Position numbers and translations under genes: made by a program. A stretch of DNA of 64,000 nucleotides, taken from the NCBI GenBank assembly GCA_037576195.1, contig CM075103.1, positions 30,030,723-30,094,722 of the forward strand, given 5' to 3'. This stretch comes from Phytoseiulus persimilis (Eukaryota; Arthropoda; Arachnida; Mesostigmata; Phytoseiidae). Under the pieces are notes generated by a model. The model searched no databases, was not told where the DNA came from, and saw nothing but the letters and a program-made list of their open reading frames with translations. The first letter of the stretch is position 1; every line of letters starts with the position of its first letter. Positions 32,895-60,530 of this stretch are shown here, piece by piece.

Positions 32895-35419
32895 ATGCCA
32901 GGAACCCCACCTGGAGCCACACTTGTTCGCATACGCTTCAAGATGAACTACTTTCCGCACTCCAGTCAGGATTTCTCTTCGACCGTGTCCGGAGGCCATG
33001 CAGTGGCATCTTCCTCGTCGCGAACGTATGTTCAGCATTCAGCCAACATGGATCCTGTGTTCATCTTCACTCCGGGAAACGTCGAAAACTTCGACAGTGC
33101 CCAGTGGGTTCACGCCAACGCACCATCTTCAGTCCTTCAAGCCGGTGAGAATCTCGGGGGCTTCCACACTACATCGGCCGGAACAACCTCTGGGTACCCG
33201 GAAAACGGCAACGGGCCTTTCCAGTCCCTCGGCCAGTCAACGAGCATGTGGCCTGATGTGCCGCCGGTGCAGGCGACTCAGAACGCTCATCCGGAACCAC
33301 AAGGAACGTCAGCAATGAGAAATCGAGGAGCGGTCGATGGCTTCCACCCGATCTCGGCCGGAACAACCGCTGGGTACTCGGCGAACGACCCCGGGTCTTC
33401 CCAGTTCCTCAGTCAGTCGACGGGCATGTGGTCTGGGATGCTGCCGGTGCAAGTGACTCAAAACGCTCACCTGGAACCCCGGAGAATTTCCGGAATGAGC
33501 CACGGTGGAGCGTTCGAGGGCGTCCACCCGATCTCGGCCGGAACGAAATCTGGGTACCCGGAGAACGGCGCCGGGCCTTCCCAGTCCCTCGGCCACTCAT
33601 GGAGCATGTGGCCTGGGATGCCGCCAGCGCAGGTGACACAGAACGCTCATCTGGAACCCCAAGGAACTCCCGGAATGGGCCACGGTTTCGCGAAACGAAT
33701 AAGCTCTGAGACCCGTACCGAAATTCATTCTCAAAGGAATCGAATTGTGATGCGGACAGAACAAGCCCTCAACAGCTCCGTCGGTGGAGAGTTCGGGGGC
33801 TCCGACACAATCTCGGCCGCTACGACTTCTGTGTATCCGGAGAACGGCTCCGGACATTTCCAGTACCTCGACCAGTCATCGATGCAAGTGCAAGTGACCC
33901 AGAATGTTCATCCGGAACCCCGAGGAACATCCGGAACGAGCCACGGTGTAGCGTCGAATGCTCAGCTGAATCCTCGGAGAACTTCCGGAGTGAACCACAG
34001 CAGAGAGATCTCCCAAGCGGCTGCTCACGAGGATCAGTGCGCAGTTTGTAACGCTGCCGCCACTGGAAAACATTACGGCGTTCTTTGCTGTGACGGTTGC
34101 AAGGGGTTCTTCAAACGTTCTGTGACAATGAAAGAGGGAGGAGACAACGTTCCGTACGAGTGTCAATACCAAAACTTCTGCGAGGTAAACGCTGAGAACC
34201 GAAACAAATGTCGAGCTTGTCGGTTGAAGAAGTGCTTCAGGATGGGGATGCGCCTACCCAGTGAGTTTCGTAAACTTGTTCATCTCTATTAGTCGCTCCG
34301 GGAATTATCTGAAAGAGAATACCAGCATACATTCTTTCTTACAGATCCGAATAGAACGACTGCGAACCCTCGACTAGCTACACGGGACGCGAATTTCGAG
34401 CAGCTAGCGAATGAGGCGCGTGCGGCTCTGCTAAACGCGAATTGCGAGCAGCCTGTGAGTATCCTCCTTCAGATCAACAAAGACATTCAACGATCCTTGA
34501 CGAAATCCAGAACCTTACCGGATGACAAGGTCATAACTCGCGAACCCTCTGATTATTAAGAAATTATCTTCTTCCACAGTTGCACCAAGCTTGGGAGCCC
34601 GGACGGCCTTACACACCAGTGCTCATCACAAGGCACATCATTCAGGCTTTCGACAGATTCTTGGAGAGCCTCGTAGCGTGGGCCAAAGCCACCCCAACGC
34701 TTTGCAGAGTCACCGAGGAGAGTAGAGCGATTCTGGTAGAAGGAGGTGCTACCGAAATCTTCCTACTGGACATGTTGCAGCGCTCTCAAGACCACACATA
34801 CTTCGACCTGGGCTGTAGCCTCATGTTCGTCGGCCATGTGGGGGATGATATCCTTGAACCAGATTATGTGCAAATGACGTCGCTCTTCTCGACGCTTTCC
34901 GGGGTTAAACGGCACAAGGTCACCCCGAGGGAGTTCGCGTACCTTCGGGCGATGAGCCTTTTCAATCATCGTGAGTATTTCCCTTCAGCCTTCCAGCACC
35001 CTATCTTGTTAGCATGAAGGTGTGGAATATTCGTCATCAATCCAGCTGGTGTCGAGCAACTGGGTATAAACTTTCTTTCTCCCTCTTCCTCATAGGCGTC
35101 AAGGAACCCGAAGACCATCAACGAATGAGTCTCCTCGCTAAACATTTGACACAGAAGCTGGAGATTGAGAAAACCGACGGGGAAGGCCGAGAAAAAGGGC
35201 GATTTGCGAAGCTCATGTTGATTTGGCGCAACCTATCATTCTTGGCCCGAAAGCTCCAAGTCCATCTCCGTAATACCGGGGTGAGTGAGGAGTCCTCACA
35301 AAGAGAAGTATCCTTATCGATATTTCCCGTTGCAATCGTACAAGGTTCGCTGAAACTGGGTTCTTTTGCAGGCACTTGACAGCTCTCGCATCAAAGCTAT
35401 GCTCCGGAATTCTTGTTGA
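32895..35419 (+). CDS. Nuclear receptor, NR2 (NR2E-like), five exons
   Basis: A ligand-regulated or orphan nuclear transcription factor. Exons are 32895-34260, 34345-34454, 34580-34970, 35096-35280 and 35372-35419. All introns are GT-AG, and the joined length is 2100 bases, 699 residues plus stop. The DNA-binding domain starts near residue 382 with two C4 fingers, P-box CDGCKGFFKRS and the second-finger end RNKCRACRLKKC. RACRLKKC is typical of NR2E receptors (tailless, dissatisfaction group). The linker between fingers (VTMKEGGDNVPYE) is about five residues longer than usual. The ligand-binding domain is recognisable from helix 3-4 (FLESLVAWAKATPTL) through helix 8 (FAYLRAMSLFN) to helices 9-11 (FAKLMLIWRNLSFLARKL). 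The short last exon supplies the C-terminal helix. The N-terminal region is made of tandem repeats. The start at 32895 is the first ATG in frame; 32943 is an alternative. Confidence 0.88.
33159..33920 (+). repeat. Four coding tandem repeats in the receptor N-terminus
   Basis: Units start at 33159, 33339 and 33519 with an exact 180-base period (60 residues). A fourth divergent unit starts near 33798 after an unrelated stretch (about 33690-33790). Each unit contains a GxHxxSAGT-SGYPENG block followed by MWPGMPPVQVTQNAHLEP. The repeats stay in frame and are rich in Gly, Pro, Ser and Gln, suiting a disordered activation region. Confidence 0.88.
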
Positions 35420-35943: not shown

Positions 35944-38361
35944 TAGGGCTGGACGTTCATCGCGGCATTTCAGCCGGGAATTCGCGGCATGATCGCGGGA
36001 TTCTGTCTACGGTGAATCGTGTGGGAGAGGGTGAAAGCCACCATGCTTCGTGGCAAGAAACCTACCAGTACAAGGAGAACTTATATTTATTTCAAATTCT
36101 CGACCGACGAGAAGTTTGAGTATGACATCACGGAGCACCCATCACAAGTCAAAGCACATTGTTCTGATATAAGAAGTTGTACATGGAGAGGTTGTCGTCC
36201 TTTATCGAGCGTCTGTCGTTGCGAAGAACACCGGCATATTGGCTCAAGGACCTCTCTGTAGCGACGCTGTTGATCGGCACGCTCAGACGCACAAGAGCTA
36301 TCTCGGAGAGCTCTGGAAACTGTAGTGAAGCACTGCACCACAATCCAGTCGGGTTGCTAGATGGGAGCAGGTCTTTAACTGTGGACAGGTACATTTGGAG
36401 CTCCGTCTTGCCCAAATCATTGTCTTCAAACCCCGGTATATTGTCGAAGACGAATTCCAGGGAAATCCTGACCAGGTTTGCTTTCGATGGGTCGAACACG
36501 CGGCATGCTCGGAAGAAATCTGCAGCGGGTTGTCGGAACTTCGCACTAGCATTCGCTGTCAGATAATGTCGTAACTTCGTCGAGGACTTCGTGCGGCGTT
36601 AGTGCATTCGAGATTATCTGCATGAGTTTGAAACGCATTGAACCATTCACTGAGCAATGTCAACTCGTCCATGACTAAGTGCGCACGAATATCGTTTCTC
36701 TCATTCTTCGTCAGCGTTGCTATCAGATGAGGAACATACTTCTTCAGTTGAGCCAGTTGCTCTTTCACTTCGTAGGAGCTACACAAGCTCCCTACCGAGT
36801 ATATGGCTGAAATAAAAGTGCCGGAGACCTCACGTCCGGAGAACTCAGAGTACTCGTCCAGATAATCGGCGTGATAGAGGGCCGCTCTGAACCAGCTATT
36901 CTACCTCGTGGCAACAGGCGTAGGAGGAAGTTTAACTGGCTTTGCGTGATCATGTAAGAATTGCTTGAATCTCGCTTTCCGAGCCGGACACGCTGTGAAA
37001 GCCCTCTTGACAGAAGAAACTAAATTGTTGACCTCCTGGAATGATGAATCCCACACTTCGTTCACGAGATTCAGAATATGGGCAAAGCAGGTCACATGAA
37101 CGCCATTGAGGAAAATGGCTTCAAGAGAGCATTGCCACGCCTTAGTCATGTAAGTCGCGTTATCCGTAACGAATGCGCTGATCTTCAAAGGTGGAATCCC
37201 GTACTTCTGTATTACTTTCAACAACGAGTCAGCGATCGTCTTGAAATTCGTTACTTTGAGTACGACACTCAAGTAAGAAGGCTCCGACCTTGGTTCCTCC
37301 GGGTTCGCAGCATGGAACTGCGAGCACGTTCAGGATATAACGATCCTCCACGTCAGTTGTCTCGTCGCAGACGATTGCAACAGATTTCTTCTTCCCGAGA
37401 AGAGCTCGGATATTCCTGACGTGGACATCGAAGGCTACGGGTGAATAGTTGCGGCGCGGAATACTTGCTGATGGTATCGATCCACAGGACCTCAAATTGG
37501 TCTCCAGGAAGTTTTTCAGCGTGGGATTATCGAGAGCGTGTAACGGGACGTTGCCAGCAGCAAAGGCTTCGACTAGACTCACGAGTGTGGCTTGTTGCTC
37601 CTCTTCCGCTCCGACGAATCTTCGTAAAGTTTCCACAAGAGTGACCTGCAGTTTTGATTTCTTGGCATCGGCGCTCCGGCGTTTTTGCTCCCTCCTTCTA
37701 TGACCTGAGCTCTTGAGATGTTTTGAACAACTGTCTTTACGCTTGTAATCTACAGGGATACTGCATGTGGTGCAGAAAAGACGGTCAACCGTTGCATTGA
37801 AAGTCCCGTTTGGGAATTCCTCCGCCCGCATCCTGGGAGTCACGTGGATTGCCGCTTTAGCTGTTGAGCTGTGTGCACTCATGGTTGCAGAGGCGTTGAG
37901 TAGGCTCCGTGGAGACAAGATGTTGCTCTCGTTCAACTCTACATAACGAAGACGTAACCTGCGTATCACAGCTTCCGCACGGCTTCGCCGCTCTGTTTAC
38001 ATTCTGACGGTCGTGATTGCCCGCACAAACTCTCAACGACACGCGTCGATATGAAATGTGCTGGCAGAGAACGAGAGAGAGAGAGAGGAAGAGTGGGCGT
38101 ACATCTCAACTCGTTGCGATACCGCTGACCACTGGCTTCATCGATTCGTGGCTTATTCTCGACCGATCGCTCCAAGTTTTTCGTTATTTTTTAGGGAATC
38201 GGTTCTCTCGCTGAAAACGGGTATTTTTTCGACTTCAAGTAGAACTCCAGCGGAATTTTATCGTGGCCGTTGAAGGCCGCAATTCGCGGAAGGAAGAAAA
38301 TCCCGCGGTAAGTCCCGGATATTGGCGCGGCCATCGCGGCCGCGACGAACGTCCAGCCCTA
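35944..38361 (-). mobile_element. hAT transposon 1, full length with degraded transposase
   Basis: The terminal inverted repeats start TAGGGCTGGACGTTC and are flanked by near-identical 8-bp target repeats, ACCATGAC (35936-35943) and CCCATGAC (38362-38369). The minus strand encodes a zinc-finger N-terminus with FCTTC and H-xx-H near 37770-37700, then CDETTDVEDRYILNV (first catalytic Asp region). FVTDNATYMTKA and CFAHILNLVNEVW follow. The C-terminal hAT dimerisation region (SVATERSLSQYAGVLRNDRR) lies near 36270-36210. The transposase is broken by a frame change near 37250, an in-frame TAG at 36899-36901 and a frame change near 36530. The catalytic motifs are conserved, so the break is not very old. 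The family resembles DUF4371-type hATs. Confidence 0.85.
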
Positions 38362-55699: not shown

Positions 55700-58600
55700 T
55701 TGAGAACTGCAGCGTCATCACGCGCGTCGCGAAATCAGCGTCCAGTATCAGCGCTCCAGGCAACCTCGCTCCAGGCGGTGAGTCAAACCTCAGATCTCCC
55801 CCGGGCAGGTAGCCAACGGTTCCACTACATCCCTTTGCCCGAATCTCGCAAAAGTTGGGCAAACGGCGGAAGCGGCAGCAGAACTCACAGCCACATTAGA
55901 CGAACCAGACGCGATGGAAGTCAGGGCAGAGGCCCTCCTCAGGGCGCGCAAACCCACAGACGAAGAATATGCAAATTTTTCGGTACTCATCAAACTGAGG
56001 AAAACAGTGAGGACGCGCTTCACCAAGAAGGTTAAAGGAGTCGAGGGGACAATGGCAAAAGACGTTTTGGAAGATGAGACCTGGAACCAGCTATCCAGTC
56101 AGTGGGGCGAACTAGAGTCCATCTACAGCGAGCTTCGAGAGCTCAACACGCAGATCACCCCCCTCCTCATCAAGTGCTCGACTGATCAGTACGAGGGCGC
56201 GGTGGAGCGAATAGCACTGTACGACAAGCAGTACGCGCTCACAGTCTCCAAGCTCCGGGAGAAGACCACTCCGCCGCAATCGGCACCGCAGCAAGATCCG
56301 ACACCGCAAGCAAGCTACTCGTGTCAAGCGCAGAGCAGACGATTCACCCTGCCCAAGTTCACGGGAGATCTGAAGAAGTTCCGAGAATGGTGGCAACTCT
56401 ACAACGTCCACGTTCACCGGAAGAAGATGGACCCTATCGAAAAGTGCTCATCCAAAGTAGCAAGAGGCGCTATCGGGAGCGCCAGCATTGGAAATCGCAC
56501 ACCTTGAGCTCACGGCAGGACAGTACCAGGAGGCGATCAACATCATCGGAGCCAAATTCGGGTGCCCCAGAGCGGCCGAGAAGGAACATCTCCAGGAGCT
56601 GAGAAGACTCTGCTCGGCGAGGGACCTACAGGATAACGATGAGTTCTTTCGTTTCGTTTCCTCGTTGTCGCAGAATGTCAAGGCGCTGGTCTCACTAGGC
56701 AAGACTTTCGAAGCCATTTCTATGGCACTCACACAGGACGTACTCCGGTGCCTCCCAAGAGTCATGAGTGAGGACTTCACTAGGAAGAATCTCGCTACAG
56801 TAACAGAGCCAGGCAACTCCGACAGCGAGCTGAAAGCATTGATAGAGTACCTAGAAAATGAGGTAGCGATGAAGCGAGCCTGCGGAGCTCCAGGGCCTAC
56901 AGGGCTAGGAGGTTGACAGGGTCGTTTCGGCAAAGATTTCAGCAATAGGGATAGGCAGTTCAGTCCCAAGCCAAATGGCTGGAGAGGTAACCAGCGAGAA
57001 CCCGGAAGAGGCACCGTGAGTTTTGTCGCAAAGAACCAAACAGTAGACCACTCATGCATATTCTGCTCTAGCCCTAAGCACGAATCGAAATCATGTAGAA
57101 AATCATTGTCGTATGAGGAGGGGAAGGAACTTTGCGACAAAAACAACGCGTGTTTCAAATGCCTCAGGCGAAACCATTTTGCGAAAAAATGCAGAGCTAG
57201 GAATGTAAGGTGCGAAAGGTGCAACCGGGGACATTACGCGATTATGTGCAACTCCGACAGAGCACTGGGCAGGCAAACAGAGGCACTCTCGACACGGATA
57301 GACACGTGCAAACTCAGGGAGACGCCGAAGGGATTGGTTTCCTCTCAGACCGGCCTAGTGGGTCAATTGCCCTTCAGGCACGCAGGTGTTCAGGTTCTTC
57401 CTGGACTCAGGATCAGAGCGGTCATACGTGTCAGAACACGTCGTTAGGGCCCTCAGATTAAAACCAGCATATCAGGAAAGCCTGGCGATGATAACGATAG
57501 GCGGCAACGTATCCAGCTTCGCAAAACATAACGTGTATCGCATCGGGCTCCAAAGCAGATTCGACAGCGAGATGGCCGTGGAGCTCGAGGCGACAGAACT
57601 TCCAGAGATAGCCCGGGGACACTTCCCGGTGTCGCCGGAGTCGTGGAACCTAGCTCCATTGGCAGACCACGGCGAGAACATATGCAGGCGGGAAATAGAC
57701 GTTCTTCTCGGCTGGGACATCATACCTGAAATCAAATGCGGAGCGGAGCGGGTTTTCGAAAACAGAATGGTCGCTAACGAAACCATTTTCGGCTGGACAA
57801 TAGCGGGAATGGACGAGTCACGGCGCGGAAGCGCGCAGTCGCAGGTCTTTGTGACAGCGAACTTGTACCAACCAGGTACCAGACTCAGACCCGCACAAGT
57901 CGTCAGCATGGCAACAGCAACAGCGGTGGACGTCTCGGAAGCCGGCGCAGCACAGACTGCGCCCAGTCCAGCTGCTCTCGGTTCAGCCGAAGACGCGCGG
58001 CCAGGAACCGCCGCCAAGACAGCACTCCACGAGGAAATCAAAGTAGACCTGCAGCTTCTGTGGTCAACAGAATTGCTGGGGATAGAAGATCCAAGTCAGG
58101 AGTCGGGCGATGCGGTCGAGGCCGAGCTGCAATTTTTTTTTTAAATAATCTAGAAAGGCTAGAAGAAGGCCGATACATGGTCAGTCTCCCTTTCAAGGAG
58201 AATCTGCGAACTCTAGAGGACAACGAGAATATCGCGCGAGGCAGCTTAAAAAGATTTCTAATCAAAGCTTCCAAAGACAGAGAGCTCCTCGCGGCGGTAG
58301 ACGGAGAGATGAGCCGATATATAGGAAATGGCTACGCGGAATCGGCATCCCCGAAAAAGCCGGGCGAACTAGTTCATTATCTCCCGATTCTGCCAGTGGT
58401 CAAAAGAGACCCAGATAGAAAGCTCACAAAAGTCAGAGTCGTGAAGGACGCGGGCGCGCGCAGGAAGGACGAGGCAGCGTTAAACGACGTCCTGCACGAT
58501 GGCCCAAACCTACTGCCGGACATTTTCAAGGTCCTGCTGAGATTCAGAAAGGATGAGATGGCGGTGGTGTCGGACACTGAGAAAGCATTCCTGCAATACA

Positions 58601-60530
58601 GGATCCGCCCCGACCGCCGCACTTTCCTGATATTATTCTGGGCCCCGGGAATCAGCGGCGATCCGCGGGCGCCAATCAAGGGGTATTGGAGCACTACGCT
58701 CGATTTCGGGACATCAGCGTCGCCATTCATTCATTGCGCCGGGTTGACGTACCATATCAGACACCTCGCGGAACAACACCCAGACAAAGCGCACTTCCTG
58801 AAAGACTTAGAACAACATTTCTACACGGACGACCTGGTCTTCACAGTACAAGCAGAAAACGAGGGCGCAGAATTTTTCAAGTTCATGTTCAAGGCGTTCC
58901 AGACGGGAGGCTTCAGGCTGCGGAAATGGGCGACGAATAGCTCAGTTTTGGGTCAAGAGACAAAAAGATCGCTCAGCGACCCAGATGTTCGAGTCGCCTT
59001 CGATCAAGAGGATTCCAAATTTCTAGGAATAGGTTGGAACCAGAAAACAGATCAACTTCACATAGACGTCGCGCCGGCGATAGAAACTCTAGAAGCAAAC
59101 ATTCCGTCGAAGAGAACCATCTTGAAGGGCACGGCACAGATTTACGATCCTCTCGGTTTAATGTCCCCGCTCACAGTCAGGCCGAAAATTCTGCTACAAA
59201 CATGCTGGAAGCCAAAAATCGACGGAACTGACAGGAAACATTCGCAGAGAATTCTTAGAAACAACGGACGCGCTCAAGCACGCACTTTCGTATACAGAGA
59301 AACATTAACACAAACGAGCGCGACGACAGCCGACAACTGCACGCGTTTTGCGACGCGAGCCTGTCGGCACTCGGATGCGTGGCACACATCAGAGAGATGT
59401 CGAAACGCGGCTCCGCGCAGATCTTCTTCGTCGCCTCAAAGGCGAGAGTTGTTCCAATAAAATCGACCTACTCGATCCATAAGTTAGAGCTTGTCGGGGC
59501 AGTCATGGCGGCCAGAATGGGGTCGAGGATCAAGCAGTATCTCAATTATCATTTCGAATCGTCCCATTACTGGTCCGACAACTCCCCGACGCTACACTGG
59601 ATCGAAGAGTCTCCAGACAGACTGAAAGTTTTCGTAGCGAATAGAGTGAGAGAGATTCAATCCCTGACAGCGGCGCCGGAGTGGGACTACGTCACCTCCG
59701 CGCAGAACCCAGCCGACCTGTTGAGTCGCGGAGCAAACATCGCGTCAGAGGAATACAGTTCCATGTGGCTTGAAGGGCCGAGTTGGTTAGCGGAGAAAGG
59801 GCGGCCAACAGAGAAGCACTCACTAAACAAGTTCTTTGAAAGCGAAATAGAGTCAGAAAGGAAAGCGATTAGCATGATGACGGTGGAGCTCAGGAGGCTT
59901 TCAAGCCGCTACTCGCCAGCGAGACGATCCCCGCGGGATGCTCCGGTTTCGGCAACCGAAGCATGGAGAGCATCGATCAGAGTCATCCAAGCCCTCCAAA
60001 AAAGCCAGCTCAGGGCAGAACTAGATTCAGAATGTAAGGAAATCTCGAAAGAAAGCAAGCTGGTCGAATTGGCACCGTTTCTGGACGCCGAGGGATTGAT
60101 TAGATGTCGTTCCAGACTAGAACGAGGCGAAGAGTGGGGATACGATGAAAAGTATCCAATCGTGCTATCAGGGGAAGCGCACGCAGTTAGGCTGCTCATC
60201 AGGTTTTTCCATGATAAGAAATGCTTCCACCTAGGCGGCGTCGCGGCAACATTGAGCATGCTAAGGGAGAAGTACTTCATCCTCAAGGCGCGCAAGGCAG
60301 TCAAAGCAGTCCTCAGAGACTGTAAAGTTTGCATGTTATTCTGGATCGAAGCGGCAGCGGAGCCAGCGCCCCCGATTCCGAGTTTCAGGCTGTCAACAGC
60401 CTCTCCATTCACGGTTTGCGGAGTAGATCACGCGGGACCAATCGGCTATCGTCTCCCAAGCGGAGATCTCGCCAAGTCGTACATACTGCTATTCGTCTGC
60501 TCGAATAAGGAGCAGACCGATCCCCAGTGA
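55700..60530 (+). mobile_element. BEL/Pao retroelement fossil
   Basis: Parts appear in BEL/Pao order: a gag-like region from about 55914, a zinc-knuckle region (CFKCLRRNHFAKKC) near 57150-57200, a protease with DSGSERSYVSEHV near 57400, reverse transcriptase at about 58160-59250 (ALNDVLHDGPNLLPDI block), RNase H near 59460-59760, and the start of an integrase (HLGGVAATLSMLREKYF and CKVC) near 60220-60340. No LTRs were seen on either side and the 3' part ends inside integrase. It is broken in a few places but well preserved, so relatively young among the fossils here. Confidence 0.85.

Follow-up and report, generated by a model that had tools for sequence, protein, structure and literature searches.

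P1, a five-exon gene on the forward strand of the 64,000-nucleotide stretch of Phytoseiulus persimilis DNA analysed here (the window), probably is a functional and rapidly evolving member of a small, lineage-specific family of nuclear-receptor genes. It extends from 32943 to 35419 and encodes 683 residues from the methionine at 32943. Its N-terminal domain consists of 60-residue units, whose relationships place the array before the sampled gene duplications of the family, and is interrupted by a short piece that appears to have been copied in frame from a distant site of the genome. The gene comprises the following parts, of which several are recognized by their similarity to P8, a related locus on the same contig.

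32895-32942, + strand: alternative 5' start with a methionine at 32895, less likely (stops in relatives)
32943-34260, + strand: exon 1 coding sequence, N-terminal domain with the repeat array, then the C4 DNA-binding domain (open frame; zf-C4 E-value 1.5e-23)
34035-34253, + strand: C4 zinc-finger DNA-binding domain with P-box CDGCKG and, compared with HNF4, a 5-residue insertion before the second finger
34345-34454, + strand: exon 2, hinge (GT-AG borders, open frame, similarity to P8)
34580-34970, + strand: exon 3, core of the ligand-binding domain (PF00104 at 3.5e-8 on the spliced protein)
35096-35280, + strand: exon 4, ligand-binding domain (GT-AG borders, similarity to P8)
35372-35419, + strand: exon 5, C-terminal end and stop (splice border, similarity to P8)

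Read from the methionine at 32895, the five exons join into a single frame of 699 residues plus stop, with GT-AG borders at all four introns. The start at 32943 is more likely, because an in-frame stop separates the two methionines in P3, P4, and P8, three of the four relatives with a 5' stretch (the exception is P2). The Pfam zf-C4 domain is found in P1 with 83.5 bits (cut-off 21.1), and its eight cysteines align with those of HNF4, which identifies it as a nuclear-receptor DNA-binding domain. C-terminal to it follows Hormone_recep with 33.6 bits (cut-off 23.5), which assigns the protein to the superfamily; this ligand-binding domain is divergent.

The 181-Mb assembly contains 36 matches to the DNA-binding domain, seven of which were assigned to the P1 family, one of them (P9) tentatively. 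All seven are on contig C3, as are two N-terminal pieces:

P1: the window gene
P2: 30.12 Mb, with DNA-binding domain
P3 and P4: 30.387 and 30.391 Mb, remnants of the N-terminal part, each with a stop and two units
P5, P6, and P7: 30.406, 30.412, and 30.458 Mb, with DNA-binding domain
P8: 35.985 Mb, with DNA-binding domain
P9: 38.24 Mb, with DNA-binding domain, tentative

The family thus has at most nine loci: the open P1 and P8, six decayed or truncated loci (P2-P7), and the probable, divergent P9. Only P1 and P8 are open throughout, the latter conditionally. P8, which lies 5.9 Mb from P1, has lost the acceptor AG of exon 3, and its open product of 626 aa depends on the use of an AG 9 bp downstream that would keep the frame; its ligand-binding domain scores 23.0 bits, just under the Pfam cut-off. 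P2, P5, and P7 each contain stops and have lost one zinc-binding cysteine, the frame of P5 changes inside the DNA-binding domain, P6 lacks the donor GT of exon 3, and no N-terminal start was found in the sequence stretches examined for P5, P6, and P7. P3 and P4 are 4.6 kb apart and their units are 99-100% identical, which points to a recent duplication within the cluster. Exon 3 of P1 matches P5-P8 at E <1e-40 and nothing else below 0.02, and the repeat stretch has hits at E <1e-10 within the family alone, except for the second genomic site of the insertion described below. P9 (C3:38242443) has the end of the DNA-binding exon and the residues following the intron in common with the P1 family. 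It keeps the eight cysteines of the DNA-binding domain, but its recognition helix is altered (CRDCEEFFDEF) and its N-terminus is long; it did not group with the P1 family in the first DNA-binding-domain tree, where its domain (37%) was the least similar of those compared. In this locus, which was not included in the profile search for units, neither a self-repeat nor a significant match to the P1 repeat was found (best E for the latter 0.057). P9 probably is a very divergent family member without detectable repeats. Taken together, these loci suggest a lineage-specific family that evolves fast and whose N-terminal domain is modular and probably disordered. A literature search retrieved no title on it.

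The initial annotation had described three in-frame 180-base units upstream of the C4 DNA-binding domain and had proposed a self-comparison as a check. TRF, a lag scan, and the open frame agree on these units. TRF reports a period of 180 at 33174-33686 (2.8 copies, 78% matches, 0% indels, score 655). In the lag scan, the best self-match over 120 bp reached 86% for a lag of 360 and 81% for one of 180, and a further strong lag followed at 279, or 180 + 99. After dinucleotide shuffling of this 1.1-kb stretch (100 replicates), no self-match exceeded 51%. A unit profile built from the first three units (U1-U3) and searched with nhmmer delimited the array as follows, the scores of U1-U3 being those of the profile's own members:

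33159-33338, + strand: U1, 60 codons (1.1e-57)
33339-33518, + strand: U2, 60 codons, profile match to 33517 (2.1e-58)
33519-33684, + strand: U3, truncated at the 3' end by the insertion; the profile match extends to 33688 (8.8e-54)
33685-33783, + strand: 99-bp in-frame insertion, which together with 33784 matches C2:39605697-39605796 at 98/100 positions
33798-33954, + strand: U4, with an 18-bp internal deletion (7e-32)
33956-34009, + strand: fragment of a fifth unit, 54 bp, profile positions 123-176 (7.5e-5)

A displaced fourth unit had also been noted. It is indeed present, starting 279 bp after U3, and it is displaced because the foreign 99-bp insertion precedes it; the fifth-unit fragment adds to the array as first described. 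U1-U4 and this fragment share one open frame of 488 codons from stop to stop, which continues through the C4 domain. The residues S, G, A, P, T, Q, and N together account for 62% of positions 1-362 of the protein, the net charge of this part is -7, and Pfam detected no domain in the N-terminal part of the spliced product. From this composition, the repeat is predicted to be a disordered AF-1-like transactivation or cofactor-binding domain.

The exact period had been read as a sign of recent unequal exchange, and a recent tandem expansion inside P1 alone would be in line with the zero indels across U1-U3. Some later exchange may also have occurred elsewhere in the family, as U2 and U3 of P8 are 85% identical and perhaps reflect one such event in the P8 line. 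However, U1-U3 of P1 are only 77-80% identical to one another (differences of 20-23%), U4 is 75-78% identical to them, and U1-U3 share 72-81% identity with the units of P8. Near-identical units with their closest relatives in the same gene, which would mark a recent tandem duplication, were not found in P1: the identity is 88% between P1_U3 and P2b_U1 and 86% between P1_U4 and P2b_U2. An alignment and tree of 21 units (127-180 bp, E <1e-20), 17 of them outside P1, covered the eight scanned loci P1 to P8. Units occur in all eight, and six have at least two (four in P1, five in P2, two each in P3, P4, and P5, one each in P6 and P7, and four in P8). In this tree, units group across genes: P1_U4 with P2b_U2 (support 99/96), P8_U4 with P5_U2 and P7_U1 (97/94), P8_U1 with P3_U1 and P4_U1 (100/99), and P8_U2 and P8_U3 with P3_U2 and P4_U2 (100/98). 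P1_U2 clusters weakly (81/84) with P2a_U2 and P2b_U3, and P1_U1 and P1_U3 have no supported partner. This cross-gene grouping shows, at the level of sequence, that the multi-unit array predates the sampled gene duplications. Together with the divergence of the units it contradicts a recent origin inside P1, which we regard as most improbable.

Signs of selection were sought in dN/dS ratios, all computed without a model of saturation or gene conversion. Between P1 and P8 the ratio is 0.62 over the whole coding sequence (621 codons; bootstrap 0.50-0.77). By region, it is 0.63 (0.25-1.86) for the N-terminus before the repeat, 0.64 (0.44-0.94) for U1-U3, 0.53 (0.30-0.88) for U4 with the linker, where the alignment is unsure, 0.41 (0.20-1.06) for the DNA-binding domain, 1.25 (0.47-5.2) for the hinge, and 0.63 (0.44-1.00) for the ligand-binding domain; the values for the N-terminus, the DNA-binding domain, and the hinge are compatible with 1. 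In a separate computation, the DNA-binding domain of P1 gave 0.42-0.61 against P8, P7, P6, and P2, and only the comparison with P8 excluded 1. Among the units U1-U3 of P1 itself, the ratios in the coding frame are 0.57, 0.51, and 0.73, the lowest of the frames in two of the three pairs but not in U2/U3. For exon 3, P1 versus P8, P5, P6, and P7 yielded 0.42-0.54 with upper bounds of 0.67-0.88, whereas the six pairs among P5-P8 ranged from 0.58 to 1.36 and were all compatible with 1. Thus, constraint acts mainly on the P1 side. The near-neutral evolution of exon 3 among P5-P8 would suit a decay of P8 and possibly of the whole family, and the constraint, with ratios near 0.6, is weak.

This weakness leaves room for the view that P1, like most of its relatives, is a pseudogene, but a young one whose frame has by chance stayed open. 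Six of the nine family loci (P2-P7) indeed are damaged, by stops, frameshifts, the loss of cysteines or of a splice donor, or the absence of the 5' end. In P1, however, the frame of 683 codons is fully open, all splice sites are intact, the insertion contains no stop and its length is divisible by three, and dN/dS stays below 1, with upper bounds of 0.77 over the coding sequence and of 0.67-0.88 in exon 3 against four paralogues. A pseudogene is therefore unlikely, and P1 is better understood as a functional gene. Even so, the repeat could be absent from the mature protein, if the gene started downstream of it or if splicing removed it. A donor-like GTGAG at 33145 and an acceptor-like site at the equivalent place in each of the three units could be taken as pointing that way, but their use would excise 80, 260, or 440 bp and in each case shift the frame. 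In a simple motif scan, in which weaker sites were not scored, exon 1 contained neither GTGAGT nor GTAAGT, whereas all four introns start with GTGAGT. Moreover, the repeat is about as constrained as the ligand-binding domain (P1/P8 dN/dS 0.64 versus 0.63). Splicing-out of the repeat thus seems unlikely, and a mature protein without it, by whichever route, has a very low probability. Since the ratio of 0.64 indicates weak constraint, the repeat probably is translated. The frame, the Pfam domains, and this weak coding constraint all agree with the original proposal that the N-terminal part of a nuclear receptor is made up of the 60-residue in-frame repeat.

The 99-bp insertion has a different origin from the units around it. 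It is absent from P8, whose four units are uninterrupted by it, and from the equivalent P2b junction. The flanks of the matching site on contig C2 have no similarity to the receptor gene, and searches with the C2 flank and the window stretch, in which very common words were skipped, found the piece at two places in the genome only; with the same proviso on common words, a mobile element is unlikely. There is no target-site duplication, and a single base is shared at the 3' junction, which leaves the junction ambiguous by one base. The insertion adds 33 residues in a stop-free frame, and both differences between C2 and the window fall on third codon positions of the window frame, too few to weigh. 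A direction from C2 to C3 is inferred because the piece interrupts the repeat; both contigs are chromosome-sized (52 and 39 Mb) and taken to be separate chromosomes. A copy of a distant site that is absent from relatives and lacks the hallmarks of a transposon is what defines a templated insertion, and the piece probably arose when a double-strand break was repaired from a template, and probably was retained because the frame stayed intact. Templated insertions at repaired breaks, as described in two studies (PMC11724301, PMC7969033), are alike in taking about 100 bp from a distant site, with no target-site duplication and minimal homology at the junctions. The case of P1 differs in that it was found in an animal genome assembly, in frame, and within an exon of a transcription factor.

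The subgroup of P1 is less clear than its membership in the superfamily. Among solved structures, the DNA-binding domain matches HNF4 alpha best (3cbb, E 8.6e-21), followed by NR2C2; the matches of the ligand-binding domain (RXR, then ER and HNF4) are all weak. P1 shares with HNF4/NR2A the P-box CDGCKG and the KKCFRxGM end, but its DNA-binding domain is only 60% identical and it differs by the 5-residue insertion and the repeat N-terminus. The initial annotation had favoured NR2E (tailless, dsf, PNR). The RNxCRACRLKKC region of P1 resembles the tll- and dsf-like domains of the genome, whereas in the tll-, dsf-, and PNR-like domains, names that we assign to the other receptors from motifs, the first two cysteines of the second finger lie further apart. 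In the first tree, the four NR2E-like domains of the genome grouped at 95/95 with the P1 family outside. Forcing P1 into NR2E lowered lnL by 3.64 (p-AU 0.311), and forcing it into HNF4 by 0.69 (p-AU 0.479); across six placements on 66 columns (HNF4, the four NR2E-like domains, two subsets of these, TR2/4-like, and RXR-like), p-AU ranged from 0.25 to 0.48. P1 is thus best described as NR2-like, the clade tests separating none of the NR2E, HNF4, TR2/4, and RXR placements; the more specific NR2E assignment is neither supported nor rejected.

P1 could be a derived HNF4. In a search of the whole genome, the DNA-binding domain of HNF4 alpha had no match of more than 60% identity over most of its length, and two partial matches of 22-23 residues reached 61-64%. 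One report records HNF4 from the dust mite D. pteronyssinus and its lack in A. lycopersici (PMC7738191). For the P. persimilis assembly, loss, an assembly gap, and a highly derived HNF4 are all possible. The supplementary nuclear receptors of nematodes descend from HNF4. They likewise expanded in one lineage through repeated duplication (PMC10938818), but the P1 family differs in its small size, the decay of most loci, and the repeated N-terminal domain common to them.

Nuclear receptors usually are a stable gene set in arthropods. The P1 family would be a birth-and-death family with a common modular N-terminal domain, would clearly exemplify the gain of coding sequence through templated insertion, and offers a natural series for the study of domain evolution, with two open four-unit genes and decayed loci that hold one to five units. 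In the proposed mechanism, the zinc fingers would tether the modular repeat domain to DNA, the number of units would change slowly through unequal exchange, and break repair would have copied the C2 piece into P1 between units 3 and 4, where it was retained with the frame preserved. That the 60-residue repeat is an activation module that sets the output of the receptor, tuned by unit number and sequence, and that one member gained 33 residues by in-frame DNA capture, is as a whole a speculative proposal and rather doubtful.

Of the window's other reading frames, 20 were searched with Pfam (18 out of the 39 with 170 codons or more, and two shorter ones), which detected transposon remnants and a few weak matches. 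Just downstream of P1, a broken hAT-type transposase lies on the - strand (36152-37996), its hAT dimerisation domain (5.7e-10) and a weak, sub-cut-off DUF659 match being in frames that neighbour each other. A Pao-type retroelement at 57778-60527 (+ strand) has matches to Peptidase_A17 and to an integrase zinc-binding domain in two frames that overlap.
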